Shown piece by piece: positions 4,608-23,157 of a stretch of 32,998 bases of DNA. The stretch spans positions 1 to 32,998 of the forward strand of contig NHEC01000028.1 in the NCBI GenBank assembly GCA_002171655.1. Reading direction: 5' to 3'. The notes beneath the pieces were generated by a model. It was not told the DNA's origin. It saw nothing but the letters and a program-made list of their open reading frames with translations, and ran no database searches. Both the position numbers and the translations under genes were made by a program. Source of the stretch: Planctomycetes bacterium TMED75. Lineage in GTDB: Bacteria > Planctomycetota > Phycisphaerae > Phycisphaerales > SM1A02. Within the stretch, counting starts at the first letter, position 1, and each line of letters opens with the position of its first letter.

Positions 4608-4877
4608 ATGGAAGAAGCCACCAGTAATTCATCCACCATTCATCGAATGAAGGACCTCCTGCGAGAGGAATTGAAGCTTGGTCCTGATGTGGTTCTTGCC
4701 GACGACGAGGTACTGGTTGGTGGCGAACATGATCTGGATTCGCTCGATGTGTTGCTGATCATTTCAAGCGTCGAGAAAGAATTTGGAATCAAGATTGCCA
4801 ATGAAAAGATCGGGAAGGATGTCTTCCGAGACCTTTCTACACTTTCCCAGTTCATAGACGACTGTGCTGCGGACTGA
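4608..4877 (+). CDS. Acyl carrier protein
   Basis: 89 residues, acidic, with the size and four-helix pattern of a stand-alone carrier protein. The phosphopantetheine attachment site is Ser45 in HDLDSLDVLLII, followed by EKEFGIKI, the usual helix II continuation. It is the first gene of the operon and is inferred to carry the aryl starter and the growing polyene chain for the KS-CLF and dehydratase encoded downstream. Characterised aryl polyene clusters usually encode two carrier proteins; only one is seen here. The ATG at 4608 has no Shine-Dalgarno and lies about nine bases after a -10-like box. An alternative ATG at 4650 would remove part of helix I. Confidence 0.88.
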   Translation: MEEATSNSSTIHRMKDLLREELKLGPDVVLADDEVLVGGEHDLDSLDVLLIISSVEKEFGIKIANEKIGKDVFRDLSTLSQFIDDCAAD

Positions 4878-5295
4878 TCAGTTGATCGAACAACTTCCCC
4901 ATAAGCAACCTTTCCTGTTTCTTTCTGAGGTTCTTGAGATCGAGACCGGGGACTGCGCCGAGGCCCGCTGGGACGTCGTGGGTGATGAGGATTTCTTCAA
5001 AGGACATTTTCCCGGCTCTCCATTGGTGCCTGGCGTCCTCATTGCGGAATCCCTTGCCCAGCTCTCGGGTCTTGTTGTCTTTGCAGACCCCGCGGGCGAG
5101 GTGAGGCAGGCAGTGCTGGCCCAGTGTGATGTACGTTTCGAACGCCAAGTGACACCGCCGGCCAGCCTGGTGCTGACTTCGAAACTCACTCGTTCACTTG
5201 GACCACTGCATTTGTTTGATGTCCGTGCAACCAACGGTTCGGTTCGGGTAGCGCGCGGGAGCCTGGCACTTTCCGCGACCGAAATCTCAGGATAG
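4864..5295 (+). CDS. FabZ-like 3-hydroxyacyl-ACP dehydratase
   Basis: 143 residues from a GTG at 4864, overlapping the ACP stop by 14 bases; a TTG at 4882 is an alternative start. It has the hot-dog fold signature GHFPGSPLVPGVLIAESLAQ with catalytic His48 and Glu62 (numbered from the GTG), as in FabZ and in the ApeI-type dehydratases of aryl polyene clusters. The opening LIEQLPHKQPFLFLSEVLEI is also FabZ-like (family: 'LPHRxPFLLVDRV'). It is inferred to remove water from the beta-hydroxyacyl-ACP in each extension cycle, creating the conjugated trans double bonds. Only one dehydratase is present; aryl polyene systems often carry two. Confidence 0.87.
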   Translation: MLRTDQLIEQLPHKQPFLFLSEVLEIETGDCAEARWDVVGDEDFFKGHFPGSPLVPGVLIAESLAQLSGLVVFADPAGEVRQAVLAQCDVRFERQVTPPASLVLTSKLTRSLGPLHLFDVRATNGSVRVARGSLALSATEISG

Positions 5296-5303
5296 AGGCC
5301 CCC

Positions 5304-5999
5304 GTGAATCTCTTTCTGTTCTGCCTTTGTGGCGCCATCGCCTGTTTGTCCCCGATCCAGGACGCGGCAAAGGATCTTCCACAAGTACTGACCCAGATCG
5401 ACCAGCAATCGAGCGATATCAGCAGCCTGAAGGCGACCTTCAGGCAGGTCAAGCACTCAAGCATTCTCCGCAAACCCCTGGTATCCAGCGGAACGATCCA
5501 GATGCTCGAAGACCGGGTTCGTTGGGATACGAAAGAACCAAACGCCTCAGTTCTGCTCGCCTCCAGTGAGGGCGTACGCATTTACTACCCTGATCTGAAC
5601 GTTATCGAAGTCTACCGGTTGAGTGATCAATTGAGACAGCTTGCGGGATCCCCGGTCTTCCGTCTTTCTGAGCTGAACAGAAACTTCACTATCGATTCCA
5701 ATCTCAAGACATCAGATTCCGGAGTGCTCTCGCTTGAGCTGATTCCCCGCGATGAGTCACTTCGAAAACACTTGAAGTCGATACGCCTGGATGTCCACGC
5801 AGAGACGGGAATCGTACGCCAGGTCGAGCTTCGAAACGTAGATGACGAGCGGACTGAAATATCGTTCGAACGCATTCGCGTGAATCCGACACTGACTACC
5901 CGCGATCTCGATCTTGATGTTCCTGAGAATGTCCGAACCGTTCATCCACTCGGCAACGACCCGGAACTTGACACCTCAATCAACGGAGCTGGCACATGA
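5304..5999 (+). CDS. LolA-like periplasmic lipid/lipoprotein carrier
   Basis: 231 residues from a GTG at 5304, 8 bases after the dehydratase stop. A hydrophobic N-terminus (residues 2-15) is a short signal peptide. The mature part reads as the LolA half-barrel: KATFRQVKHS (about 43-52), SGTIQMLEDRVRWDTKEPNA (the LolA 'G.l.l..p.r.rW.y..P' strand set), then IYYPDLNVIEVY, and SIRLDVHAETGIVRQVELRN. LolA homologues (ApeL-type) occur in aryl polyene clusters and are thought to help move the pigment lipid or a lipoprotein across the periplasm. It works logically with the lipoprotein at 12939 and the MMPL exporter at 13718. Its stop overlaps the next start (ATGA). Confidence 0.75.
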   Translation: MNLFLFCLCGAIACLSPIQDAAKDLPQVLTQIDQQSSDISSLKATFRQVKHSSILRKPLVSSGTIQMLEDRVRWDTKEPNASVLLASSEGVRIYYPDLNVIEVYRLSDQLRQLAGSPVFRLSELNRNFTIDSNLKTSDSGVLSLELIPRDESLRKHLKSIRLDVHAETGIVRQVELRNVDDERTEISFERIRVNPTLTTRDLDLDVPENVRTVHPLGNDPELDTSINGAGT

Positions 6000-6934
6000 C
6001 TGTGCCTGGAAGATCGAAGGGGAGTTGGTATCGGAAACCACTTGCGGATCTCTTTGTCCAGCACGGGCTCTTTTACTTTGGCCGAAAGACCCCCTTTCTC
6101 ATAAAGCTCTTGAAGCCAATGCTGGTCTGGTCTGCCTACATTTTCTCCACCTACCTCCGACGCAACCTCTCGAACAATGCCTCATTCCTCCTGGGTTCGG
6201 ATTCGACTCCCCGCGAGCGCTCTCGATTCGCCCGACGTCTCATCGCCAAGCACTTTGAATTCCTGCAAGACTTCAATCGCATGCAAGATTGGAGCCAGCG
6301 ACAATTTCTAGATTTAATCGATTCCGTCGATGGAATCGAGCACTACCATGCTGCACGCTCTCATGGACGAGGCCTCATCGTCACCACCGCACACATGGGA
6401 TCGTATGAGGTTGGACTTGCTGAGATCATGGCACATGAGACTGATGTACATGTTGTGTATATGCCGAATGACCAGGCCCCATTCGAGCGTTTGCGTTCCA
6501 GGTTTCGCCAACGAATTGGAGCGGTGGAACATGATGCCTCGCAGGGAATCCGTTTGTGGATCGAGCTCAAGAATGCACTCGATCGAAATGCGGTGGTCGT
6601 GATTCAGGGCGATCGAGTCATGCCTGGTCAGAGCGGTCAATTTGTCCCTTTCTCCAACGGGCAGTTGGAGCTTCCGCTGGGTCCGATCAAGCTCGCTGCG
6701 GCATCGGGAGCAGCTGTCCTTCCGATATTTTGTCTTTACTCAAAAGCACCTCGGGTGCGGATCGAGGTCGGTGAACCGATCATTGTTTGCCGGGATGAAC
6801 GGCCATTTGATCAAGCAGCTTTGGAGGCGCTGTCTGGTAGTATTGAACAGGTCGTAAGCAGGCAACCGGACCAATGGCTTGCTGCACACAGTGCGCTGAT
6901 CCAGCCGGTTGATCCAAGGAGTTGTGCAGTTTGA
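5996..6934 (+). CDS. LpxL-like lysophospholipid acyltransferase
   Basis: 312 residues, starting in an ATGA overlap with the LolA-like gene. It belongs to the lipid A biosynthesis acyltransferase/LPLAT type: the HX4E motif is His133-Met-Gly-Ser-Tyr-Glu138 in TTAHMGSYEVG. It is followed by VVVIQGDRVMPGQSGQFVPF, the substrate-binding block with Gly-Asp-Arg, and later AAASGAAVLPIFCLY. A hydrophobic stretch near residues 33-52 probably anchors it at the inner membrane. In aryl polyene clusters a related acyltransferase is thought to transfer the polyene acyl chain onto a glycerol- or sugar-based lipid anchor, and that is the inferred role here. In several known clusters it is fused to a GT2 glycosyltransferase; here a GT2 enzyme is a separate gene at 17084-18403. 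Confidence 0.83.
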   Translation: MTVPGRSKGSWYRKPLADLFVQHGLFYFGRKTPFLIKLLKPMLVWSAYIFSTYLRRNLSNNASFLLGSDSTPRERSRFARRLIAKHFEFLQDFNRMQDWSQRQFLDLIDSVDGIEHYHAARSHGRGLIVTTAHMGSYEVGLAEIMAHETDVHVVYMPNDQAPFERLRSRFRQRIGAVEHDASQGIRLWIELKNALDRNAVVVIQGDRVMPGQSGQFVPFSNGQLELPLGPIKLAAASGAAVLPIFCLYSKAPRVRIEVGEPIIVCRDERPFDQAALEALSGSIEQVVSRQPDQWLAAHSALIQPVDPRSCAV

Positions 6935-9141
6935 GTTTCCAAGCGGTCATCACTGGCGCGGGCCTAGTCTCTTCGATCGGACGAAACAGCGAAGAGTGCT
7001 GGAAGTCGATCACGGCGGGGCAAAGCGGAATCCGCGAGCTGACGTCGATCGAGCAGGAGATCCAACCGGCACCCATCGGGGGCGAAGCTCCTCCCGAGCC
7101 CGAGGATTCTTCCGATCTCCCTCGTGAAGTCATTCGACTCCGCATGGCAATGCAGGAAGTGCTGTGCGAAATCGGGTTGGATGCATCGTCTCAGGGTGAC
7201 GTTCGCCACGGAATCATCCTCGGCACGACTCTTTCCGGAATGCGCAGTGGTGGCAGGTATCTGCGTACCAAGAGAACCGCGGATATCAATGGATTCCTGG
7301 CGGCAAGCACTCTGAGCAGGCTTCTTGAGCCATACGACTGGAAGGGGTTGGCATTGACCACCTCTTCCGCCTGCAGCTCGGGCCTGGCAAGCATCTGCCT
7401 CGGAGTCTCTTTGCTTGAAGCGGGGTTGCTTGATCTCGTACTCGTTGGCGGCTACGACCCGATCAGTGAGTATGCCTACTCAGGCTTCAACTCCCTGCGC
7501 CTGATCTCCGAGAATCGACCCAAGCCATTCAGTGCCAACCGGGATGGTCTGCAGCTCGGTGAGAGCTACGCTCTCCTTGCGTTGGAACGTTCGGAATCGG
7601 CAGAAGCCCGCGGGGCGAACGTGATCGCTCGGATCTCCGGCTTTGGGGAGACCTCAGATTCGTTTCACCTGACCCAGCCACATCCAGATGGTGATGGCGC
7701 AGCGCGTGCCATTCAAACCGCTTTCAACGGGTCCGCACTCAAGCGAGACGACATCGGCCTGATCTCCGCCCATGCGACCGCAACCCCGAACAACGACGCT
7801 TCGGAGTATGCCGCTCTTAAATCGATTTTCCAGGAGCGCCTCGCCCAGACCCCATTGGTGGCGTTCAAGAGTTATCTCGGGCACACTCTGGGAGGAGCTG
7901 GGGCGGCCGAATTGATTCTCACTGCGATGGCAATGCGCTCGAATCGTGTCCCCCAGACCTTGAACATAAAGCGATCCGAGCTTGAATTCAATGACATCGC
8001 CATCAATTGCGATCCGCTCTTTGAATCCCAGATTGACCACACCCTGAGCATTTCACTGGGGTTCGGGGGGTGCAATAGCTGCGTTCTCCTGAGCTCGCCG
8101 GAGGTCGCCGAAGTCAAACCGTCACCCAACCCTTCGCGGGTATCCCAGAACGTGGTGATCACTGGTGTCGGGGCCGTCTTTCCGGAAGCGGTTGGTAACG
8201 ATGCATACATCAGCCAGCTCAAGGAAGGCAGAGATCCGGTCGGAGGAAACATCTGCGAAGCGGAGCTCAACGGCCACATCAACACCCGACGAACCAGACG
8301 CATGAGCATGTTTTCTAAACTCGTGCTCGCTGCGACATCGAATGCGTTGCGCTCGGCGGACATCCAGGATGTCGAATCGTTTTCCCAGACCTGCGGTTCC
8401 ATTCTTGGTTCGTCACACGGGTCGAGTGAATACGCCGAACAGTACTATTCGCAGGTGGTGGAGGAAGGGATTGCTTCAGCAAATCCGGTGATGTTTGCCG
8501 AAGGAGTCCCAAACGTTGGCACGGCCCACATCAGTCTGATGCTCGGCCTCAAGGGACCGGCGCAGACCATCATCGGCTCACGCACCGCAGGGCTTGATGC
8601 ACTCTCACTGGCTGCGATCCGGATACGGCAAGGCGAATGGGAGCGAGCGATCGTCGGGGGCGCAGACGAGTACAGCAGAACCGCCGAACAACTCTATGGT
8701 CACCTGGATCGGGGACTCGTTTCCAGGGCGGGTGGGGTGATGTTCGTTCTTGAGTCGGAAGCCTCGGCTCTTGCCCGGGGTGCCGGTATTTTCGCCCGGA
8801 TCGGTGAATCGGCCTTTGGATTTGATTCAGGTCCATGCGCCGCAAAGGCCCAGAAACGACTGATTTCTGACCAAATCGACTTACCCGAACCCATACTCAC
8901 CTCGATGGCGACCGGTGGGGAGTGTGGCCAGAAGAGGCATGCGGATCAAGCCCAGTATGAAGTAGAATCCCACTGCGTCACCCCGTTGGGATTGATCTCG
9001 GCCGCGCTGCTTGGCAGAATCTTTCTTGGTGAAACGGGTGCTGATTCAGATGGAAGTGTACCGCCTGAATTTGCCGTGCTTGCCAGCGACTTACACGGGT
9101 CCGTAACTGGTTTGGTTCTTGAAGTAGTGGAAAATGACTGA
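6931..9141 (+). CDS. Fused beta-ketoacyl synthase - chain length factor (KS-CLF)
   Basis: 736 residues from TTG 6931, with AAGGAG (6916-6921) 9 bases upstream. A TTG at 6922 would leave one base of spacing. Stop and start overlap as TTGA. Two full thiolase-fold units are joined. Unit 1 (about 1-390) opens QAVITGAG and has an intact triad: Cys148 in SSACSSG, His281 in SAHATATP, and Lys313/His318 in FKSYLGHTLGGAG. Unit 2 (about 407-736) opens VVITGVGAVFPEAVGND, but the nucleophile position reads GSRTAGLDA, with Arg551 in place of Cys, and no HATAT-like motif is seen. It resembles a chain length factor. In characterised aryl polyene systems ApeO (KS) and ApeC (CLF) are separate subunits that form a heterodimer; here one chain appears to hold both. 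Role: condensation of malonyl units onto the aryl starter. Confidence 0.88.
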   Translation: MSFQAVITGAGLVSSIGRNSEECWKSITAGQSGIRELTSIEQEIQPAPIGGEAPPEPEDSSDLPREVIRLRMAMQEVLCEIGLDASSQGDVRHGIILGTTLSGMRSGGRYLRTKRTADINGFLAASTLSRLLEPYDWKGLALTTSSACSSGLASICLGVSLLEAGLLDLVLVGGYDPISEYAYSGFNSLRLISENRPKPFSANRDGLQLGESYALLALERSESAEARGANVIARISGFGETSDSFHLTQPHPDGDGAARAIQTAFNGSALKRDDIGLISAHATATPNNDASEYAALKSIFQERLAQTPLVAFKSYLGHTLGGAGAAELILTAMAMRSNRVPQTLNIKRSELEFNDIAINCDPLFESQIDHTLSISLGFGGCNSCVLLSSPEVAEVKPSPNPSRVSQNVVITGVGAVFPEAVGNDAYISQLKEGRDPVGGNICEAELNGHINTRRTRRMSMFSKLVLAATSNALRSADIQDVESFSQTCGSILGSSHGSSEYAEQYYSQVVEEGIASANPVMFAEGVPNVGTAHISLMLGLKGPAQTIIGSRTAGLDALSLAAIRIRQGEWERAIVGGADEYSRTAEQLYGHLDRGLVSRAGGVMFVLESEASALARGAGIFARIGESAFGFDSGPCAAKAQKRLISDQIDLPEPILTSMATGGECGQKRHADQAQYEVESHCVTPLGLISAALLGRIFLGETGADSDGSVPPEFAVLASDLHGSVTGLVLEVVEND

Positions 9142-10084
9142 GCTGAAAGAAACGATGGTTCGGACGAGACTCCCCGCGGGACTGATAGAGACCCCCGCAT
9201 GGGTGGCTGACTTCGTCGAAGTATCGTGCGGGAGCTGGGAAGATTCGAATGACATCATCAGCGTTCGGACGGTAGAAAGTCCGACGCACGCACTGGTGTC
9301 CATGGTGGCGCGTGATGCCCGGAGCATGTCCGGAGCGGACTTCGCAGATTGTGTGGATTCGATATACGGGTCGCTCCATGAACACCTGGATCAGTTGTCC
9401 GTACGAAGACCGATCAGAATGTGGAACCACATACCTGGAATCCTGGATCCGGTGGGTGAAGGCATGAACCGATACCACCTACTCAACCAGGCTCGGCACC
9501 GGGCGTACTGTCGATGGTACGGCAGTCCCGATGTGTTCAATGAGCACGTTGTGACCGCCACCTGCACGGGCCACGAGGGGAACGATTTCATCTACCACTG
9601 CCTTGCCGGTCGCTCTGGTGGAATCGGAATTGAAAACCCACGACAGGCTGCCTCATATAGGTATTCACAACGCTACGGACCGAAACCCCCATGTTTCGCT
9701 CGTGCGACCCTTCTGCCTCTGGATGATTCGGGGGGGCAAAGAATACTGGTCGGTGGTACCGCAAGCGTCCGCGGTGAAAACAGCATGTTTTCCGGCGACC
9801 TCCGCGGACAGCTCAATGAGACGCTCAACAACCTGGTCTCGATTCTCGGTGCGTCATATTGCGACAGCCCCACCACTGCCACACCTTCCTTGAGTTGGTA
9901 TTCGCACATCCGTGTCTATTACAAGAATGAAGGCGATCGAAGTCAGATCGAGTTCACCGTCAGCCAGAGCTTCCGACCGGATGCCACGGTTGAGTGGGTC
10001 CGGGCACCGATCTGCCGGGATGAATTACTGGTCGAGATCGAAGGCCTGGCGGTGGTTTCAGACGGTTCGGACGACCAAACATGA
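9134..10084 (+). CDS. Chorismatase of the FkbO/Hyg5/XanB2 family (hydroxybenzoate-forming)
   Basis: 316 residues, overlapping the KS-CLF stop by 8 bases. Blocks typical of chorismatases appear in order: RMWNHIPGI (95-103), MNRYHLLNQARHRAY (111-125), ENPRQ (167-171), YGPKPPCFARA (181-191), VGGTASVRGENS (206-217), then GD (221-222) and NET (228-230), and an acidic C-terminal motif ELLVEIEG (297-304). FkbO, Hyg5 and XanB2 split chorismate and release pyruvate, giving a dihydroxycyclohexadienoate (FkbO) or hydroxybenzoates (Hyg5: 3-HBA; XanB2: 3-HBA and 4-HBA). XanB2 supplies the starter for xanthomonadin, a brominated aryl polyene. Within this operon a starter-supplying role is strongly suggested, but which product is formed cannot be told from sequence alone. 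Confidence 0.82.
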   Translation: MTELKETMVRTRLPAGLIETPAWVADFVEVSCGSWEDSNDIISVRTVESPTHALVSMVARDARSMSGADFADCVDSIYGSLHEHLDQLSVRRPIRMWNHIPGILDPVGEGMNRYHLLNQARHRAYCRWYGSPDVFNEHVVTATCTGHEGNDFIYHCLAGRSGGIGIENPRQAASYRYSQRYGPKPPCFARATLLPLDDSGGQRILVGGTASVRGENSMFSGDLRGQLNETLNNLVSILGASYCDSPTTATPSLSWYSHIRVYYKNEGDRSQIEFTVSQSFRPDATVEWVRAPICRDELLVEIEGLAVVSDGSDDQT

Positions 10085-10099
10085 AAGCGACTCTGCTCA

Positions 10100-11461
10100 A
10101 TGACGAGTGAAACAAAGACATACGACGCCATCGTGCTTGGGGGAGGTCCGTCCGGTGCCACTGCTGCGCTTTCGCTGGCCCGCAAGGGACTGAGCGTTCT
10201 GGTTCTTGAAAAGTATGAATTTCCCCGTTTTCGGATTGGGGAATCCTTTCTGCCTGAGACCTATCTGCAGATGAAGCAGCTGGGCCTTGAGCAGGACCTG
10301 CTCGAGCTTCCACACGTTGAAAAACTGGGTGGCGCTTTCAGCCTCGGACACGGAGATCAGGAGCCAGTCGACTTCTGGTTCAAGAACGGGCTGGTCAGTC
10401 GAAACTCAAAGTCATTCAATGTGGAGAGAGCACCCTTTGATCAGATGCTTCTGAACAAGGCGCGTGAGGCAGGTGCCGAAGTTCTTCATTCCGAAAAGGT
10501 ACTGAAGATCAATCGACTGGCAGACAACGATGTTCAAATTCTTTCCGAGAGTGGTCCCAAAAGCGCGCGATTCCTCGTCGATGCGACAGGTTCGGCCACC
10601 GTCGTTGCGAGGCACCTGGGGACCAAGGTCAAGTTCCCCGAGCTGAGCAACATAGGCTGCTTCGCCCACTTCACCGGAGTGCTGAGGAAGTCGGACGAGC
10701 GATCGGGTTTCGCACGAATAGTCATGTGTGAAGATGCGTGGTTCTGGGTGATTCCCATTGATGAACACCGGACAAGCATCGGAGTTGTTGCCGACCACAA
10801 GTTCGTGAAGCGAATGCAGGTTGACCCGAGCCGATTTCTGGAGTGGTCGATCAAACGCTGCCCGGCCATGCGGGAGATCTTTTCTACCGCCCGTGCCTGT
10901 GAGCCTAATGAACTTCCTGCGGGAACGAATCATGTCGTCGCCGACTTCTCCTACACCTGCAAGCCCTATGCCGGGGAAGGGTACTTCCTCTGCGGAGATG
11001 CCGCCACATTCATTGATCCGGTGTTTTCCACCGGAGTCTGCCTCGGCATGCGGAATGGTGAAGACGCTGCAAATTCGATCGCCAGGATCATTCAGCAGAA
11101 TTCGAATCCACGCAAGGTTCGCCGTGGATACAAGAGGCGATCAATCTCGAGCTCAACCCCGATGTTCAAGCTGGTCCGACTGTTCTACCGTCATGAGTTC
11201 AGGGAACTGTTCCTCTTTGGAAAAGGCCCACTGATGCTCCACTCAGCGGTTCTTGAAATCCTGAGAGGCAATGTCTTCCCCCGTCCGCGGTTGGGAATCA
11301 GATGGCGTTTGCAACTGTTTGTCTTCTGTTGCTGGCTGCAGCGCCACGTCAGCCTGACGCCCAAACTCGAGAAGTTCTGGCTGGAAACGGCCTCGGTCAT
11401 CCCGCCGGGTTACGACGTCAAGAGTGAACTCTCCGAGAAAGAGATGAAGTTGGCTGAATGA
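10100..11461 (+). CDS. Flavin-dependent halogenase-like FAD enzyme
   Basis: 453 residues, 15 bases after the chorismatase gene. The N-terminal FAD motif is GGGPSGA (14-20), followed by FPRFRIGESFLP (41-52), close to the 'FPRxxIGESLLP' of phenol and pyrrole halogenases. An exact WxWxIP signature is present as WFWVIP (214-219), together with GDAATFIDPVFSTGV (299-313), matching the FAD/chloride-region block of halogenases. Lys75 in EKLGGAF could be the halogenation lysine. Length and the long hydrophobic C-terminal part (about 345-420) resemble phenolic-substrate halogenases. Xanthomonadins are brominated, so halogenation of the aryl head is a reasonable inference. Related geranylgeranyl reductase-like or monooxygenase activities remain possible, since WxWxIP alone does not prove halogenation. 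Its stop overlaps the ligase start (ATGA). Confidence 0.75.
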   Translation: MTSETKTYDAIVLGGGPSGATAALSLARKGLSVLVLEKYEFPRFRIGESFLPETYLQMKQLGLEQDLLELPHVEKLGGAFSLGHGDQEPVDFWFKNGLVSRNSKSFNVERAPFDQMLLNKAREAGAEVLHSEKVLKINRLADNDVQILSESGPKSARFLVDATGSATVVARHLGTKVKFPELSNIGCFAHFTGVLRKSDERSGFARIVMCEDAWFWVIPIDEHRTSIGVVADHKFVKRMQVDPSRFLEWSIKRCPAMREIFSTARACEPNELPAGTNHVVADFSYTCKPYAGEGYFLCGDAATFIDPVFSTGVCLGMRNGEDAANSIARIIQQNSNPRKVRRGYKRRSISSSTPMFKLVRLFYRHEFRELFLFGKGPLMLHSAVLEILRGNVFPRPRLGIRWRLQLFVFCCWLQRHVSLTPKLEKFWLETASVIPPGYDVKSELSEKEMKLAE

Positions 11462-12939
11462 CTCTGCTGAACAGTGACCGAATGCTCTGGCTGGACAGCA
11501 TCGCGGGTCATGCGAAGTCGATTCCGAACCGAGTTGCAATAAGGAAGATATGCCACACCAGCGGCACGGTGCACAACACCACCTATGGCGAGCTCGAAGA
11601 ACGAAGCAGCCATGCCGCGGCGGTGTTGCAGGGCCTGGTGCCCCCAGGCGGGTCAGTGCTCATTTGTCTCCCAAATGGACCGGAATTTCTGCTGGCTCTC
11701 ATCGGTGCATTCAAGGCGGGGCTTCCTGTACTTCCGGTATCGACTGCATCCACCGCGCACGAACTTCAAGAGATCACCCAGGTGGTGGGCGCCTCTGTTT
11801 TCATTCGCTCCGAAGATGCCTTGCCGCGAATCGATGAACCTGGTGTATACGAAATCGACATCGAGTCACTCTGCAGAGAACCGGCACGTCCGATTGGTGG
11901 ACCCCGTGCAACCCCTTCACTGATGCTTCGGACCTCCGGGACTACTGGCATGCCGAAGGTGGTCTCGCGTGACCTGCACGCACTTGATGATGTGGCAGAG
12001 AATCTCAAGGAAGCACTTCAGCTGACGGTCTCCGATTTGGTGCTGGCTCTGGTTCCAATGTGTCACTCCTACGGAATTGAGCACTGCGTTCTCGCCCCCC
12101 TGCATGCTGGAGCGGAAATCGTTTCGGTCCAGGGGATCGATTCTGCTCCCATACACGCTCTGATCGCCGATGTGAGAGCAACCGTCTTTCCCGGCTTCCC
12201 ATTCGCATACGAGCGGATACTGGAGGAGACGAAGGATCCGATTGCACCTTCGCTGCGACTGGCCTACTCCGCAGGGTCCCAACTTCCCGAATCAGTATCA
12301 GACCGCTTCTCTCAGCAATTTGGCATCACCCTGGGGCAGCTGTATGGCTCTACGGAAGTGGGTTCCGTACTTTTCAATGATCCGCATACCAGCAAACTGA
12401 AAAGCGAATCGGTGGGATTCGCACTACCCGATGTACACGTACTGATACTGGATCCCGAGAATCCAGACCTCGAAGCCCCTTTGGTTGATGGAAACGAGGG
12501 GCAGCTTGCAGTGCGGTCCTCCACCATGTTGTCCCACTATGTCGGCCAGAAAATGAACGACATGCTGGAAGGGTATTTTCTAACCGGTGATCTTGCGGTG
12601 AGAGGTTCCTGCGGCTCAATTACCATCACCGGACGCTTGAAGCACCAGGTCGACATCGCTGGTGCCAAGGTCAATCCCCTTGAAGTTGAGGCGACCATCC
12701 TCCAGATGGATGGTATTTCTGAGTGCCTCGTGGTTCCATGCGTCGTGCGCGGGACGCTCAAAAGATTGCGCGCGCTGCTGGTCACTCAACCGGAGAGAAC
12801 CCCGCCTTCGGTGTCCGAAATCAAGCAACATCTCCGGTCCAGGCTTTCAGCCTACAAAGTACCTCGAATCTACGAGTTTCGAACGAAACTGCCTCGCACC
12901 CCATTGGGAAAGATCATCCGAACGGAAAAGGAACTCTGA
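11458..12939 (+). CDS. AMP-dependent aryl-acid ligase (starter-loading enzyme)
   Basis: 493 residues of the ANL (acyl-CoA/aryl-acid ligase) superfamily. The phosphate-binding A3 loop is LMLRTSGTTGMPKVV (about 155-169). A5-like LGQLYGSTEVGSVLF, A7 YFLTGDLAV, A8 GRLKHQVDIAGAKVNPLEVE and the A10 lysine Lys485 in PRTPLGKIIR are all present, so the enzyme looks complete. In aryl polyene clusters (ApeH; XanA2 in Xanthomonas) such a ligase activates hydroxybenzoate or a cinnamate-type acid with ATP and passes it to the carrier protein. Here the chorismatase two genes upstream would supply the acid, and Ser45 of the ACP (4608-4877) is the likely acceptor. The next gene starts inside its stop codon (TGATG). 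Confidence 0.86.
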   Translation: MTLLNSDRMLWLDSIAGHAKSIPNRVAIRKICHTSGTVHNTTYGELEERSSHAAAVLQGLVPPGGSVLICLPNGPEFLLALIGAFKAGLPVLPVSTASTAHELQEITQVVGASVFIRSEDALPRIDEPGVYEIDIESLCREPARPIGGPRATPSLMLRTSGTTGMPKVVSRDLHALDDVAENLKEALQLTVSDLVLALVPMCHSYGIEHCVLAPLHAGAEIVSVQGIDSAPIHALIADVRATVFPGFPFAYERILEETKDPIAPSLRLAYSAGSQLPESVSDRFSQQFGITLGQLYGSTEVGSVLFNDPHTSKLKSESVGFALPDVHVLILDPENPDLEAPLVDGNEGQLAVRSSTMLSHYVGQKMNDMLEGYFLTGDLAVRGSCGSITITGRLKHQVDIAGAKVNPLEVEATILQMDGISECLVVPCVVRGTLKRLRALLVTQPERTPPSVSEIKQHLRSRLSAYKVPRIYEFRTKLPRTPLGKIIRTEKEL

Positions 12940-13721
12940 TGGTTCAAACGCATACGAAGCTACGTTCGGGATGTCTTTTCGCATTACTGACCCTGTGTGC
13001 ATCCTGCGCACCACACCTGCCCGTTCATGAGTGGACGACTCCGGAATCGGCATTGCAGACCATGAACCGAAATTCATCTCGAGTGGAGACCCTGGCTGCA
13101 GATTGCGTCATACAACTTGAATCGGATTACGACCAGACCATCGTGCTTGATGGCGTGATCTACTCTCAGGAACCAGATCGGTTGAGAATTGCTGGCTGGA
13201 AACTTTCGGATCGAATCTTTGACCTTCTCGTCAAAGACGGGCAGTCCTGGTTCTTTTCAGCCTTGCAGATGCATGGATATATTGATGAGGACACCGGTCT
13301 GGAGCAGATTGGTGCAGATGGGTTTGCCTCGATGTGGCGATACGCCAGCGGGGTGGTGGATACGGATCGCGTTCTTTCCATCGAGTCAGTGGGTGATGAT
13401 CAGTTCGAGATCACGGTTGATGCGGAGGCCAATGGAGTCACCGGTCAAACGAATGCCGGAGAAAGTGCGCAAGTCGTCTATCTGGTCGAGAAGTCGACCC
13501 TGACGGTTCGGGATATTTCCTTTCTGGTGGCACAGGAACTCAGATACCGAGTCTCACTTGGGAAGTACCAGGTGATTGATGGCATCGTGTGGCCAACCAA
13601 ACTCTCTGGTCGCGGGGACCAGGGCGCCTTTGATGTGCGGATGTCCGCTGTCGAATTGAACAGACCCCTTCCCCAGAATGCACTTGAACCCAGCTCGAGG
13701 ATGAGAATTCAGTCGAAATGA
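12939..13721 (+). CDS. LolB/DUF4292-like outer-membrane lipoprotein
   Basis: 260 residues from ATG 12939, which overlaps the ligase stop by one base and has AAAGGA (12927-12932) 6 bases upstream. A longer in-frame reading to 12723 lies inside the ligase gene and is rejected. The N-terminus is a lipoprotein-type signal; Cys23 in LCASCAP is the likeliest lipidation residue, though position -3 is Cys and not Leu, so the lipobox is imperfect. The mature part (LAADCVIQLESDY, YSQEPDRLRIAGWKLSDRIF, LLVKDGQSWFF) shows the half-barrel strand pattern of LolB/LolA-like proteins. Aryl polyene operons carry a lipoprotein at this position (ApeN-type), thought to accept the pigment at the outer membrane. 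It probably pairs with the LolA-like protein and MMPL exporter. The next start overlaps its stop (ATGA). Confidence 0.7.
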   Translation: MVQTHTKLRSGCLFALLTLCASCAPHLPVHEWTTPESALQTMNRNSSRVETLAADCVIQLESDYDQTIVLDGVIYSQEPDRLRIAGWKLSDRIFDLLVKDGQSWFFSALQMHGYIDEDTGLEQIGADGFASMWRYASGVVDTDRVLSIESVGDDQFEITVDAEANGVTGQTNAGESAQVVYLVEKSTLTVRDISFLVAQELRYRVSLGKYQVIDGIVWPTKLSGRGDQGAFDVRMSAVELNRPLPQNALEPSSRMRIQSK

Positions 13722-16291
13722 AACGGCCCTGGTCAACGCCCGGTACCTGGTCCTGGACACTTCCGGTACACCGCCCGTGGCTGGTGGTACTTGCTTCTCT
13801 GCTTCTGGCGGGAGCCGCACTGGTGCTGCTTTCCCGGTTGCACGCCTCGTCAGTCTTGGAAAGCATGTTTTCAGGTTCGAACCCAACGGTTCAGGCCTAT
13901 CTCGATATGCAGCAGTCCCTGGAGTCGAAGGACGAAATCATCATCGTGGCGCATGATGACTCGGATTCGTCGACCACTACGGAGTCCGAAACCAGACTGC
14001 TTTCATTTGCCCTTCGGCTGCAGGACGCGATCGAAAGCTCGAATTCACTGCTCGTTTCTGGAAGCAACCTGCGCTACCGCAATGGATACGTGCCGGACAT
14101 CGCGCGTTATTACGAGGAGGTGGTAGTACCCAACGCTCTCCACTATCTCCAACCTGATGACATCGACGCACTGCTGGTCCAACTGACTCCTGATCGGATC
14201 AAAGCCCAGATTGAACAAAACGAGCGTCTGGTTGCCGCCCCCGGATCAGCCTCCGCCATCGCCGATCAGGTACTCAAAGATCCGCTGCGCATCTATGAGT
14301 TTCTCGGACAACGATTGTCAGATTCGGGATTTCGCGCATCAGAACCCTGGTTTTCATCAGACAAACGACACCTGCTGATCAGGATCACCGGATCCACGCC
14401 GGTGAGTGACATGGACTACACGCGCTCGTTTGTAAACGCGATCCAGGAGATGGCGCAACGAGTGAATGGGGATGGCCTGCTCCTTGAGTACACCGGTGCC
14501 TACCCGATCGCAGAATTGAGTGAGCGTTCAATCCGGTCCGACATGATCACCAGTGTCTTTTGGACTCTGGCATTGCTCTTTATCGTGTTCTTGATCGGCT
14601 ACCGCTCGTGCACCGAATACGTGGTCGCGGGTCTCTCGATAGGAATGGCCATTCTCGTTGCATTCGGTCTCTTCGCATTGCTGCATTCATCCTTGAATCC
14701 AGCGACCGCGGTTGCGGGTGCGATTCTGGCTGGCCTGGGCGTCGATTATTCAGTCCATGTCATGTCGCATGTAAGTCACGAGTCAGCGAATCAGAACCAG
14801 GAACCCCGACTCGGCATTCCTGCGGCACTCCGCAAAGTAGCCGTACCCGTCGCAATCGCCGGAACAACGACGATCATTGCATTCGTGGCGGTCTCGCGTT
14901 CCAGTGTCCAGGCACTACAGGAATTCAGTCTACTCGCTGCTATTGGAATCGCCTGTTCCGTCATTGCAGCCTTGATACTCCTTCCCGCATTGCTGTACCT
15001 CTTTCGAGTCGTGCCATTCCGACTTTTACCGAAACGCGATTCAACCACTGGTTTGCCAAGGAGGCTGGTACGGAGAATTTCGGATGCGCCGGGGACAACC
15101 ATTTCCGCCTGCATTGTGGTCTGGCTTTTCATAATCATTGCAGCCTGGTGGATGCCCGGTGCCGGGGCGCGGGGCGATCAACTCTCGGAGATGCACCCGC
15201 ATCCCAACCCCCCGCTTGAGATCCAGAAGCGAATCGTCGAACTCTTCAGTGAATCGGACGAGACCCTGTTCGTATGGATTGATTCCAACAAGGCGACCGA
15301 TCTTTTGAGAAGCGCCTGGTCGGTCACTGCAGAACTCGAGCGAGATAATTCGAAGGCACTGGGGGTGGTCTCCACCCTGAGCATCGCGAGTCTGTTGCCC
15401 GATCCGAGCGATCCGGCATACAGACTCAGTCGACTTCCAAGCTTCGAGGTGGATCGATTCATCGAGGAATTCGAACAGGCACTGGACCAAAGCATCTTCA
15501 ATCCAGACAGCTATGATCAATACGTTGCATTCCTCCGCCGGCTACTCACCAGTTCGACTCCACCAGACCTCGGCAATCTGGCTCAGTTTCCCTCGATATA
15601 CAGACAACTTGTCGGAACCGATGAAGAGGGCGCACCGATCGGTACCGTAGTGGTGGCCGACATTGGCGGCGATCGACCAGAGATGGATGAGTTGATCCCG
15701 GAACTTGATCGGCGAATCAGCCAGGTTCCCGGTGCGACTCTCACAGGTATTTCCGCCATTGGTCAATACGTGAATGAAGCAGTCGGCAGTGAGCTTTTCA
15801 CCTTGATGGCCTATGCCTTGATCATCATTCTTGCCTTTCTCATGATCATCTTCCGAAGCATTGGAAGTGTTCTACTGGTTCTGCTCCCTTGCCTGTTCAC
15901 CCTTCCGTTCGTATTCGGAATCATGAGACTGCTGGGAATTGAATTCAACATGATCAACCTCATCGGAGTCCCCCTGCTCATCGGAATCGGCATCGATGAT
16001 GGAATCTTCGTAGTCTCGATCGCGCTGCACGGAAGGCGGAATGCGGTCGGTCGTGATGCACTGCTCTCCCGGTTTCGTTCGGTGTGCCACGCAATGCTGG
16101 TCACCACTGCGACCACCGCACTCGCATTTGGCTCACTGGTGTTCACCAGCACGCCGGCCATACAGAGTCTGGGCGTGGTGACCGCGGTCGGGGTCCTGGG
16201 ATGCCTTGCTTCCACGATCGCGGTTCTTTTGCCGATCCTCCTGCTCCTGCACCCGGCCCCGGAACCCCGGACGACTGTGGAACACTCATGA
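13718..16291 (+). CDS. MMPL/RND-family lipid exporter
   Basis: 857 residues with the duplicated architecture of MMPL transporters: a first membrane helix (about 25-45), a large periplasmic domain (about 46-275), a block of five helices (about 278-440, including LALLFIVFLIGYRS and VAGAILAGLGVDYSVHVMSH), then a second helix near 465-485, a second periplasmic domain (about 490-690) and five final helices with MINLIGVPLLIGIGIDDGIF. The GLGVDYSV and GIGIDDG motifs hold the Asp residues used for proton coupling in this family. In aryl polyene and xanthomonadin clusters such an exporter (ApeM-type) moves the pigment lipid from the inner membrane outward. It is the last gene of the tightly overlapping series. 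Confidence 0.88.
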   Translation: MKRPWSTPGTWSWTLPVHRPWLVVLASLLLAGAALVLLSRLHASSVLESMFSGSNPTVQAYLDMQQSLESKDEIIIVAHDDSDSSTTTESETRLLSFALRLQDAIESSNSLLVSGSNLRYRNGYVPDIARYYEEVVVPNALHYLQPDDIDALLVQLTPDRIKAQIEQNERLVAAPGSASAIADQVLKDPLRIYEFLGQRLSDSGFRASEPWFSSDKRHLLIRITGSTPVSDMDYTRSFVNAIQEMAQRVNGDGLLLEYTGAYPIAELSERSIRSDMITSVFWTLALLFIVFLIGYRSCTEYVVAGLSIGMAILVAFGLFALLHSSLNPATAVAGAILAGLGVDYSVHVMSHVSHESANQNQEPRLGIPAALRKVAVPVAIAGTTTIIAFVAVSRSSVQALQEFSLLAAIGIACSVIAALILLPALLYLFRVVPFRLLPKRDSTTGLPRRLVRRISDAPGTTISACIVVWLFIIIAAWWMPGAGARGDQLSEMHPHPNPPLEIQKRIVELFSESDETLFVWIDSNKATDLLRSAWSVTAELERDNSKALGVVSTLSIASLLPDPSDPAYRLSRLPSFEVDRFIEEFEQALDQSIFNPDSYDQYVAFLRRLLTSSTPPDLGNLAQFPSIYRQLVGTDEEGAPIGTVVVADIGGDRPEMDELIPELDRRISQVPGATLTGISAIGQYVNEAVGSELFTLMAYALIIILAFLMIIFRSIGSVLLVLLPCLFTLPFVFGIMRLLGIEFNMINLIGVPLLIGIGIDDGIFVVSIALHGRRNAVGRDALLSRFRSVCHAMLVTTATTALAFGSLVFTSTPAIQSLGVVTAVGVLGCLASTIAVLLPILLLLHPAPEPRTTVEHS

Positions 16292-16359: not shown

Positions 16360-17100
16360 ATGTATTTCACTGTCTTCCTGATCACCGCGTTGGTTGCCCT
16401 GATCCTGCTTGCTTGCATTGCCGTGGCGCTTCGTGGAGTCAGCGCACCCCGAAGCACGCTCTTCGGCCCCGTGTCCTATCGTGGCGCAGCGGGCCATGGC
16501 CGAAACGTCGCACTGAGCTTCGATGATGGCCCCGATGAAGAGTTCACAAATCAGATCCTCGATATTCTCAAAGTACATGGCGTGCCCGCGGCATTCTTCG
16601 TGATCGGGCGCTACTCCGAAACCAACCAGGACCTGCTCAGGCGAATTCATGCCGAAGGACATGTCATCGGCAACCACAGTTATTCGCACAATCACTTTGG
16701 CGCGTTTCGCTACACCAGGTACTGGGAACATGAGCTTGCACACACCGACGAGACAATTCACCGAGCAGTCGGACTCCGACCGACCCTAGTCCGACCACCA
16801 ATGGGGCTGCGCAATCCACTGATGATGAAGACTTTTCGTCGCTGCGGCTATACCACAGTCACCTGGAGCTGCCGTGGTCTTGATGGAGTGACGACGACCG
16901 CCAAGAAGATACTTGACCGTATTTCGAAAACCGTACAAGCGGGTTCCATCATTCTGCTCCATGATGGAACCGACCCCTTTGGTCAGCGCAATCCCCAATC
17001 GACGATCGACGCGTTGCCGAAAATCATTGCCGATGTTCGAAGTCAGGGACTGGAATTCGTCCGTCTCGACGAACTCATCGACGTTACCCCGTATCGCTGA
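16360..17100 (+). CDS. Membrane-anchored polysaccharide deacetylase (NodB domain)
   Basis: 246 residues. An N-terminal hydrophobic helix (3-25) anchors it in the inner membrane, and the NodB domain covers about 48-240. Catalytic motifs are all visible: SFDDGPDE with Asp55-Asp56, GNHSYSH with metal ligands His106 and His110, RPPMG (145-149) and LLHDG with His201-Asp202. The enzyme would remove acetyl groups from an N-acetylated sugar. It begins 68 bases after the exporter gene, a looser spacing than inside the operon, so co-transcription is likely but not proven. With the GT2 gene facing it, a role in a glycosylated lipid anchor for the polyene can be inferred; peptidoglycan or exopolysaccharide are alternative substrates. 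Confidence 0.85.
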   Translation: MYFTVFLITALVALILLACIAVALRGVSAPRSTLFGPVSYRGAAGHGRNVALSFDDGPDEEFTNQILDILKVHGVPAAFFVIGRYSETNQDLLRRIHAEGHVIGNHSYSHNHFGAFRYTRYWEHELAHTDETIHRAVGLRPTLVRPPMGLRNPLMMKTFRRCGYTTVTWSCRGLDGVTTTAKKILDRISKTVQAGSIILLHDGTDPFGQRNPQSTIDALPKIIADVRSQGLEFVRLDELIDVTPYR

Positions 17101-18403
17101 CAATTGGTGCGCTTTTTTCCGTGGGTTGCTCACTGGGGATCATGCTGAGTGCCAGGGAAGTGATTAATCCCATGGCCACCCCGAGTACGGTGCCGACCAG
17201 GATCGAACCGACCAGCCACTCCAGAATGACCTCTGCAAACAGCTCTGAGATGCTCAAGGTCATGAAGTCCGCGAGAACCGGCATCTTGAAATGAATCACT
17301 ACAAACCCGGCCCAGATGCTGGCCGCGATCACCAGCGGGCTCAGAGGTGGCATCGATATCTGGGTCCCCGCTACCACCGTCAAGGGATGGAGTCTCAATC
17401 GCTTCGCGAGGTAGAGGGCGAGCAGTGCATGAAAACCGAAGAAAGGAAGTGACCCTATGAACCCACCCAGTCCAACTCCCATCGCCACCGTGGATCGAGA
17501 CGATGGATCACTTCGAATCTGCTTCCAGAGTGCTCGCGGGCTGAACCAGGCGAGAATTCGAGAAACCGACGAGGTGGCTGCCCGCTCGTCGCCCGAAGCG
17601 ATTGGATCTGGGACCGAAGGAAACCGGGCGGGGACCAGAGCTCGGCCGAGTAGCCGAAAATGAATTAAGGCGCCAAGAAGTCCGTCATACACCGGGTGAA
17701 GGTGCGAAACACGTTCGCTGACGTCCTGGTAGATGCATTCCACGGGAATGTTGCGAACTCCAGCACCACCCCACACCGAACGGGTCAATACCTCGGCCTC
17801 GAAAGCGTAACGCCCCATACAGCAGTTGATCGTCTGGAAGATACTGAGTGGATAGACCCGGAATCCACACTGGGTGTCGTTGATTGTGGCACCAGTCTCC
17901 AATCGAGTGGCGAGATCGGAAAGCCACCGACCAAAACGACAGCGTGCAGGATAGGTGGGATGTCGCGAGTCTCGTTCACCCAGAATAATCGACCGCGGAC
18001 TCGACTCCGATGCTCTTTGGAAATCGGGAATCCGACTCGGGCAGTGCTGACCATCAGTATCGATGGTGAGTGCGTGGGTGTATCCAGCTTCAGTAGCGAC
18101 TTCGAAGCCGGTCTTGAGTGCTTCAGCCTTTCCGCGATTCCCGGGGTGCTGCATGATCCTGATTGAATCACCGGGTCGCGATGCCTTCCAGGCCTCAAGC
18201 AGACTCTGTGTGTCGTCGGTGGATCCGTCGTTGACCACTACAACCGAACCACCGACATCCAGAGCCTGGTCCACGATGCCAATGACGGTACGGCCATTGT
18301 TGAACGTTGGCGCAACAACCACGAGGTTGTGGTCGGTTTCTAGGTTCCGTTCGGTGTTCATTCGGCTCAATGGTAAACGGATCCCACCCGTGTCACACAT
18401 CAT
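17084..18403 (-). CDS. GT2 glycosyltransferase fused to DUF2062 membrane domain
   Basis: 439 residues. The GT2 domain (about 26-250) has LVVVAPTFNNG, VVVVNDGSTDDT, the DxD metal site in ALTIDTDGQH (Asp115, Asp117) and DTQCGFRVYPLSIF, as in dolichyl-phosphate-mannose-synthase-like enzymes that use nucleotide sugars and lipid acceptors. The C-terminal part (about 300-425) is a DUF2062 membrane region with several helices (GVGLGGFIGSLPFFGFHALL, LVGSILVGTVLGVAMGLI). The start may be Met1 (18403) or Met15 (18361); no clear Shine-Dalgarno distinguishes them. Its 3' end overlaps the convergent deacetylase gene by 17 bases. GT2 domains are common in aryl polyene clusters, often fused to the LPLAT acyltransferase; here it may build the sugar part of the lipid anchor. 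Confidence 0.83.
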   Translation of the reverse strand: MMCDTGGIRLPLSRMNTERNLETDHNLVVVAPTFNNGRTVIGIVDQALDVGGSVVVVNDGSTDDTQSLLEAWKASRPGDSIRIMQHPGNRGKAEALKTGFEVATEAGYTHALTIDTDGQHCPSRIPDFQRASESSPRSIILGERDSRHPTYPARCRFGRWLSDLATRLETGATINDTQCGFRVYPLSIFQTINCCMGRYAFEAEVLTRSVWGGAGVRNIPVECIYQDVSERVSHLHPVYDGLLGALIHFRLLGRALVPARFPSVPDPIASGDERAATSSVSRILAWFSPRALWKQIRSDPSSRSTVAMGVGLGGFIGSLPFFGFHALLALYLAKRLRLHPLTVVAGTQISMPPLSPLVIAASIWAGFVVIHFKMPVLADFMTLSISELFAEVILEWLVGSILVGTVLGVAMGLITSLALSMIPSEQPTEKSAPIVSDTG

Positions 18404-18715
18404 TTACGGAGTGGTAATCGAGAAATTGAACCCAGTCGAACGATTCCTCAACCCTTCCGTGATGCGATTTCAACGACCGGGTGAAAGGAACAGCGAAAAC
18501 CAGGATTGTGCACTTCAGTAAAAGCAAGTCCTTTTCTTCTGATTCCCAGAAGTCGTTTTCTTGGCGGACCAGCTGAATATCGCCCTTTCACCATTGCCCT
18601 CGAACTTCACCAGAACCGCCACATCAGATCTGCGTATCTCAACGTACTTCGTTGTCGCAACGCAGGGGTGATGTTCTGGGGTGTTTCGACAGAGAACTCA
18701 TGGAGAGCTGCATAT

Positions 18716-20281
18716 ATGAATCCCTTTCACCACGGTTGTTGTGCCGTGCTTGCCCTCGTTGCCGCAAGCACCCCCCTGCTCGGAGATGTGTGTACTGCTG
18801 ACTTTGACGGTGATGGCGAAGTTGACGGAGCGGATCTCACCACCCTGCTCGCCCGGTGGGGAACCTGCCCCAGTCCGTGCGAATCGGACCTTGATGGAAA
18901 CGGCGTCACCGATGGCGCCGACATCACGCTACTTCTCTCTGCCTGGGGCGAATGCGAAGCTCCCTGCCTGGATACGGAGCCATTCACCTATGTGGTGATT
19001 CCCGATACCCAGTACATGACCTCCTATTCGACCGGGCAGATTCCGGAGATGTTCTATCGCCAGACCGAGTGGATCGCCCAGAACGTCGAGAATCTCAACA
19101 TCCGGTTCGTCTCCCACCTCGGTGACATCGTCGATCTGGGTTGGATCAATGCGCAATGGAACATCGCCAATCAGGCGATGACCACCCTGGACGGCGTCGT
19201 GCCCTACGGGCTCACCTTCGGAAACCACGACGCCGACGACGCGGTCTGGGGCCGAAGCGACATCGTCTACAACCAGTACTTTCCCCGAGATCGTTACGCC
19301 GGGAATGCCTGGTACGGGGATGGGTACCCGGCGGGAAAGAACACCAACAGCTACCAGTACTTCGAGGCCGGATGCGAGCAGTACCTGGTGATGCACCTGC
19401 AGTGGGACCCCCCCGCGGACGTTCGTGCCTGGGCGGACGGCGTGCTCGCCGCGAATCCCGAGCAGCGGGTGATCATCTCCACCCACGAGTCACCGGGAAA
19501 CTACGTGCTTTGGAACGAGGTCCTCACCAAGCACGACAACGTCTTCCTGATCGTCTCCGGTCACGAGGGATCGCGTGAACGCTACCTCGAACTGACCAAC
19601 GACTTCGGCAACCGGGTCCCGTCGATCCTGACCGACTACCAGTGGGACAACCCCAACCACGGGATGCTTCGCTACTACACGTTCGAGCCCGGATCGAACG
19701 CGGTCACCGCGACGACGTACGCGACGTGGTCGGACTTCTACGAAGAAGACGCCAGTTCAGCGTTCACCTTCAGCGTTCCCTTCGGTGACGGGACGAATGC
19801 CTGTGCCGATCAGGGCTCGGAACCCTACGGCAATGGAGCGATCCAGCTACCGGGACGACTCGAGGCGGAATACTACGACGTCGGTTGCAACGGCTACGCC
19901 TACTCGGACCTCGACAACATCAACGAGGGCGGCCAGTTCCGGAACGACGGCGTCGACGTCGAGATCGCCTACGATGACGTCCAGGGCTACAACATCGGAT
20001 GGCTGCGTGACGGTGAGTGGATCAACTACACCATCGAGGTGGCGGAATCACGCAGCTACGCCCTGGACCTGCGGGTCGCGAGTGCGGGCAACGGTTCGAT
20101 CATGCGCCTCACGATCGACGGCACCGACCTGGCCGGACCGATCGCAATCGACCCGACCGGGACCTGGCAGTCCTGGACGACCCTCACGGTTCCGGAGGTC
20201 TTCCTGAACGAGGGCGTCCACGAACTGAGGCTTGAAATCGATGACGGTGACTTCAACCTGAACTACATCGACGTGCAGTGA
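18716..20281 (+). CDS. Secreted dockerin - metallophosphoesterase - CBM6 protein
   Basis: 521 residues from ATG 18716, with GGAGAG (18702-18707) 8 bases upstream. A frame extension to 18506 has no start signal and is rejected. Residues 1-23 are a signal peptide ending LLG. Residues 28-80 form an N-terminal dockerin-like pair (DFDGDGEVDGADLTTLL, DLDGNGVTDGADITLLL). The calcineurin-like phosphoesterase domain (about 90-375) shows the metal-ligand blocks VVIPDTQYM, SHLGDIVDLG, FGNHDADD, STHESPG and SGHEG. Residues about 388-521 are a CBM6-like beta-sandwich (LEAEYYDV, DGVDVEIAYDD, GEWINYTIEV, LNYIDVQ end). It is probably secreted and acts on phosphate esters at a polysaccharide surface. Dockerin modules are usually C-terminal, so the N-terminal position is unusual. 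Confidence 0.86.
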   Translation: MNPFHHGCCAVLALVAASTPLLGDVCTADFDGDGEVDGADLTTLLARWGTCPSPCESDLDGNGVTDGADITLLLSAWGECEAPCLDTEPFTYVVIPDTQYMTSYSTGQIPEMFYRQTEWIAQNVENLNIRFVSHLGDIVDLGWINAQWNIANQAMTTLDGVVPYGLTFGNHDADDAVWGRSDIVYNQYFPRDRYAGNAWYGDGYPAGKNTNSYQYFEAGCEQYLVMHLQWDPPADVRAWADGVLAANPEQRVIISTHESPGNYVLWNEVLTKHDNVFLIVSGHEGSRERYLELTNDFGNRVPSILTDYQWDNPNHGMLRYYTFEPGSNAVTATTYATWSDFYEEDASSAFTFSVPFGDGTNACADQGSEPYGNGAIQLPGRLEAEYYDVGCNGYAYSDLDNINEGGQFRNDGVDVEIAYDDVQGYNIGWLRDGEWINYTIEVAESRSYALDLRVASAGNGSIMRLTIDGTDLAGPIAIDPTGTWQSWTTLTVPEVFLNEGVHELRLEIDDGDFNLNYIDVQ

Positions 20282-23085: not shown

Positions 23086-23111
23086 ATGAACAATCCTTTG
23101 ATGTAAGGGCC

Positions 23112-23157
23112 CCGGAAACAAAAACCCGCGCGAAAGGCTTGGCTCTTTCTACGCGGG
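23112..23157 (-). terminator. Intrinsic terminator for the minus-strand membrane protein gene
   Basis: CCCGCG-c-GAAAG (23125-23136) pairs with CTTTC-ta-CGCGGG (23145-23157) around an 8-base loop. On the minus strand the hairpin is followed by GTTTTTGTTTCC (23112-23123), a good U-tract. It would end transcription from the gene at 23390-24271 before the serine hydrolase gene begins. Confidence 0.7.

Follow-up and report, generated by a model that had tools for sequence, protein, structure and literature searches.

The window that we analyzed, a 32,998-nucleotide stretch of DNA from Planctomycetes bacterium TMED75 (contig NHEC01000028.1), contains an operon-like run of plus-strand genes, adjacent members of which overlap or nearly so. 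Within this run, a single reading frame (6931-9141) encodes a ketosynthase (KS) fused to a chain length factor (CLF). Upstream of the fused gene there are genes for an acyl carrier protein with a DSL serine (ACP; 4608-4877), a FabZ-type dehydratase with a GHFPG motif (DH; 4864-5295), a LolA-type lipoprotein carrier (5304-5999), and an LpxL-like acyltransferase (AT; 5996-6934). Downstream are genes for an FkbO/Hyg5-type (XanB2-like) chorismatase (9134-10084), which by homology is the likely maker of a hydroxybenzoate starter; a flavin-dependent halogenase-like protein with WFWVIP and GxGxxG motifs (10100-11461); an AMP-dependent ligase that, also by homology, likely activates the starter acid (11458-12939); a small lipoprotein with a lipobox-like LTLCASC motif (12939-13721); and an MMPL/RND exporter (13718-16291). 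Two cluster neighbors follow, a polysaccharide-deacetylase-like protein (16360-17100, plus strand) and a GT2-DUF2062 glycosyltransferase (17084-18403, minus strand). Elsewhere in the window there are a metallophosphoesterase that carries a CBM6/CBM35 carbohydrate-binding module at its C terminus (18506-20281) and, on the minus strand, a 650-residue protein with a Beta-lactamase2 domain match in mid-chain (21169-23121).

This gene content is that of xanthomonadin-like and aryl polyene clusters (PMC3949708, PMC3691225). An assignment to this kind of cluster had been made in the original prediction, and the ACP, DH, LolA, AT, AMP ligase and MMPL exporter genes around the KS bear it out. The companions of the xanthomonadin type, a chorismatase and a halogenase-like gene, are also present, with activities predicted from their sequences; the chorismatase matched PF21168 above the cut-off and TIGR04444 below the curated cut-off (144 of 325 bits). 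Much of the set (ACP, DH, LolA, AT, KS-CLF, chorismatase, halogenase, ligase, lipoprotein and MMPL exporter) is kept in most of the Phycisphaerales loci that we fetched with wide flanks. The lipoprotein, located between the AMP ligase and the exporter, had no match in Pfam or NCBIfam, and is conserved in most of the clusters fetched. There was no ketoreductase among the scanned genes of the window, in an otherwise complete cluster (4608-16291). SDR-type reductase matches were found elsewhere in the same incomplete genome, and the reductase is presumably supplied from there; it could be a FabG shared with fatty acid synthesis.

The fused gene consists of 736 codons that are open without interruption. 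Its TTG start (6931) is preferred over the first possible start (6922) because there is a ribosome-binding site, AAGGAG, read directly from the sequence 9 nt upstream (6916-6921), and because the TTG shares bases with the stop codon of the upstream acyltransferase gene (TTGA). Around the junction of the two units (8060-8200), there are stop codons in the other two frames and none in the reading frame. Ketosynthase-type domains were the only Pfam domains on the 736-residue chain, with no further DH or AT domains: the N and C domains of ketoacyl synthase on the first unit, and a second stretch of N domain.

The first unit (residues 5-390; 6943-8100) matches both the N and C domains of Pfam ketoacyl-synt. 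All four of the catalytic residues named in the original prediction, Cys148 (codon TGC, 7372-7374), His281, Lys313 and His318, are present in the sequence, numbered on the 736-residue chain. They are nearly invariant in the family: Cys148 in all 51 members that have a residue at that column, His281 in 52 of 53, and Lys313 and His318 in 53 of 53. From its sequence and this conservation, the first unit is judged to be an active-type ketosynthase. A linker of about 14-17 residues (8101-8142), with lower model confidence (block means of 79-82), joins it to the second unit.

The second unit is a chain length factor (residues 405-732; 8143-9126). The two units had been described as both complete. 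This holds for the first; the second is shorter (about 330 residues). Its first thiolase half is complete, and the other half is reduced and divergent, with low model confidence at residues 663-675. The reading of Arg551 (codon CGC, 8581-8583) as the residue that aligns with the nucleophilic cysteine was confirmed, and the position of the second catalytic histidine is also changed, to Glu679. With Arg551 in place of the cysteine and Glu679 in place of the second histidine, the CLF half is predicted to be catalytically dead.

We used AlphaFold2, with 48 fused homologues as input, to predict the fold of the whole chain (mean pLDDT of 92.6, pTM of 0.94). In a Foldseek search of the PDB with this model, the top match was 6riw, the KS-CLF didomain of PfaC (E = 8.5e-45, 895 alignment columns); single KS chains ranked below it and covered about one half of the protein. 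The whole didomain superimposed on 6riw with an rmsd of 7.6 Å and a TM score of 0.79, indicating that the placement of the domains differs somewhat from that in PfaC. A profile search of the PDB with a cut-off of 1e-100 gave no matches, most likely due to the cut-off. The pTM and the fold match to PfaC support the docking of the two halves as a 1:1 KS-CLF pseudo-heterodimer within one chain, as had been proposed.

The original prediction called for a search for the same fusion in other genomes, and we found it to be conserved in about 50. We searched 400 genomes of the order Phycisphaerales (Planctomycetota) with the second unit and obtained a match in 59. From the strong matches (E below 1e-20) we fetched 51 loci, some of which were truncated at the end of a contig. 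The KS and CLF were in one frame in 50 of the 51; in the sole exception (G550), the sequence starts within the gene, close to the end of its contig. Across the alignment, members were between 72% and 29% identical to the window protein. The named matches among the carriers were Planctomycetota, mainly Phycisphaerae/Phycisphaerales. A scan of the genome contigs with the 48-member alignment yielded 79 loci, and a single-sequence scan of the contigs, made with conserved peptides, gave none. Among the carriers is Phycisphaera mikurensis NBRC 102666 (G356), a type strain with a closed genome; it was identified by the first 4 kb of its second contig (81,157 bases), which are 100% identical to plasmid NC_017081 of that strain. 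This distribution of sequences argues that the KS-CLF fusion is a real, inherited variant and the common form in Phycisphaerales.

We think it very probable that the product of this gene is the condensing enzyme of a xanthomonadin/aryl-polyene-like polyketide synthase of type II, with the KS and CLF made as one polypeptide and the CLF half dead and docked. The basis for this explanation is sequence, conservation, phylogeny and predicted fold, from which we infer the chemistry, the product and the role of the arginine. The KS half would use Cys148, His281 and His318, with Lys313, for a Claisen condensation of the ping-pong type. The CLF half, presumed to dock on the KS as in PfaC and ApeO-ApeC, would set chain length by closing off the polyene tunnel at its end. 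The fusion would fix a 1:1 stoichiometry and allow the two halves to fold together.

A different reading accepts the fusion and assigns Arg551 a specific catalytic or gating role, in malonyl-ACP decarboxylation or carboxylate binding. Arginine is the majority residue among the 50 sequences of the order (Arg in 39, Val in 5, Ala in 4, Leu in 1 and Ser in 1), and a scan of named loci, overlapping heavily with this set, gave the same pattern. It also occurs at the aligned position of E. coli ApeC, a remote homologue for which the register at this column agrees with the spacing to the next strand. In addition, the half-size CLF of Lysobacter, ORF16, has an essential glutamine (Gln166) in the region that matches residue 551 (PMC3691225). 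However, the same site is Val, Ala, Leu or Ser in fused relatives, Glu in the sister-group CLFs outside Phycisphaerales, and Ile in ApeC of X. doucetiae, and we regard a dedicated role as improbable. The arginine had been singled out as unusual and as a residue that may change gating or decarboxylation, and the comparison supports neither description. Since Val, Ala, Leu, Ser, Glu, His and Ile all occur and E. coli ApeC has Arg, the position tolerates many residues, and an arginine there is not needed for the fold and not peculiar to these proteins; across the sequences compared, Arg551 reads as a signature of the clade. Most likely it fills the dead pocket in a structural capacity, and it may lie near Glu679. 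A pairing of Arg551 with Glu679 is chemically attractive, since the two stand where the dead site would have its Cys and His, but has no support from covariation: nine proteins with Val or Ala at 551 retain Glu679, and we rejected a salt bridge between the two. P. mikurensis (L025:8220-10520) has Ser551 with Arg679, unlike the rest of the clade.

Less probable still is a tandem ketosynthase whose second unit would itself be an active enzyme, or a thiolase with its nucleophile displaced. Weak thiolase-like NCBIfam matches fall on the second unit, and phmmer searches with it rank FabF chains first. Against this, the unit lacks both the cysteine and the second catalytic histidine, and not one family member has a cysteine at 551. 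Furthermore, in a joint tree every CLF-type unit, the second unit of the window protein included, falls outside a supported KS clade (100/98). The possibility that the second half would align better with an active KS was thus answered by the tree, which places it with the CLFs, and we rejected both the thiolase and the second active KS on the missing Cys and His together with the tree. Hardly credible is the joining of two separate genes by an assembly or sequencing error: the window does come from a fragmented assembly (79% completeness), but the frame runs through the junction without a stop or a shift, and about 50 other genomes of the order share the fusion (29-72% identity), the closed genome of P. 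mikurensis among them, which rules out an error.

The trees also bear on the origin of the fused condensing enzyme. The second unit clusters with CLFs that other Planctomycetota (L035, L036 and L038) make as discrete proteins, and the KS units of these same genomes are sister to the KS clade of the window, so the histories of the KS and the CLF mirror each other. Separate KS and CLF trees mirror each other as well, and the Phycisphaerales fusion clade is monophyletic in both. The window KS groups weakly with ApeO (84/52). An overlap of a few codons between the KS and CLF frames is seen in L035 and L038, an arrangement that is a plausible precursor of the fusion. The fusion probably arose in an ancestor of these Phycisphaerales, when adjacent KS and CLF genes came into one frame.

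There were other proteins of similar layout in the loci examined. A second, apparently independent KS-CLF fusion is present in another family of Planctomycetota (f25; L026:1580-4183 and L027:6201-8111), with Glu at the nucleophile position of the second unit; we detected no aryl polyene gene set near either copy. These two fusions nest among genomes with two adjacent genes, apart from the Phycisphaerales clade. On these sequences, fusion appears to have occurred at least twice in one phylum, in Phycisphaerales and in the lineage of L026 and L027. A plasmid of Streptomyces sp. NBC_00335 (L193:2117-4483) encodes a 788-residue protein in which an active KS unit is joined to a second unit that has His where the nucleophile would be; it adjoins a FabZ gene and a further KS, and is annotated just as a beta-ketoacyl synthase family protein. 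Like the window protein, the fusions of both these other lineages have an active KS and a Cys-less second unit in one frame. One locus (L036:12168-14363, from G306) contains, in addition to a discrete KS-CLF pair, a 732-residue protein in which a KS unit is combined with a second, KS-like one that is highly degenerate. A broader scenario, in which a clade-wide, vertically inherited fusion serves as the standard condensing enzyme of the aryl-polyene-like synthases of Phycisphaerales, an Arg-Glu pair that usually replaces the Cys-His of the dead site in the CLF stabilizes the pseudo-heterodimer, and fusion occurred at least twice in Planctomycetota, is possible as a whole, and we hold it only tentatively.

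KS-CLF fusions have precedents in the KS-CLF-DH2 architecture of PfaC and the KS-CLF-AT architecture of HglC (PMC3098273). As in the PfaC didomain of bacterial PUFA synthases (6riw), an active KS is followed by an inactive CLF in one polypeptide. PfaC, however, belongs to a large PUFA synthase of many domains, DH domains among them, whereas the window protein is a stand-alone didomain of 736 residues, and the ACP, DH and AT of its type II cluster are discrete proteins. The ApeO-ApeC heterodimer (PDB 6qsp; A. baumannii, 7f28) comes from the same kind of cluster, sharing the ACP, DH, LolA, acyltransferase, AMP ligase and MMPL exporter, and also has an inactive CLF partner. ApeO and ApeC are encoded by two separate genes, and separate polypeptides are a trait of type II KS-CLF pairs from which the single frame in the window, and in about 50 genomes, departs. 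ApeC is about 240 residues long and essentially one thiolase fold (PMC8358021); it is thus reduced further than the CLF unit of the window, which retains a reduced second half. In the xanthomonadin and arcuflavin systems, the KS and a half-CLF are again separate (Lysobacter ORF17/ORF16 and Azoarcus ArcK/ArcJ), and the half-size CLF of Lysobacter is essential for pigment (PMC3691225). The companions there are similar to those in the window: chorismatase, halogenase, AMP ligase, LolA, exporter, polysaccharide deacetylase and glycosyltransferase. In the literature that we searched, most subscription journals being outside it, we found no earlier description of a KS-CLF fusion for aryl polyenes, Planctomycetes or type II polyenes, and none of the pigment clusters of Phycisphaerales. 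The KS-CLF fusion itself is known; its occurrence in aryl-polyene-type clusters seems to be undescribed.

What is distinct here is a stand-alone KS-CLF didomain in a type II aryl-polyene-like cluster, in the form common in Phycisphaerales. A natural single-chain KS-CLF of the aryl polyene type would sidestep the problems of co-expression and stoichiometry that come with KS-CLF pairs, and would offer a compact means of testing the control of polyene chain length by the CLF. The fused gene could serve as a gene-level marker of the pigment clusters of Phycisphaerales, and its apparent double origin in one phylum points to a route, taken more than once, by which split synthase subunits become fused.
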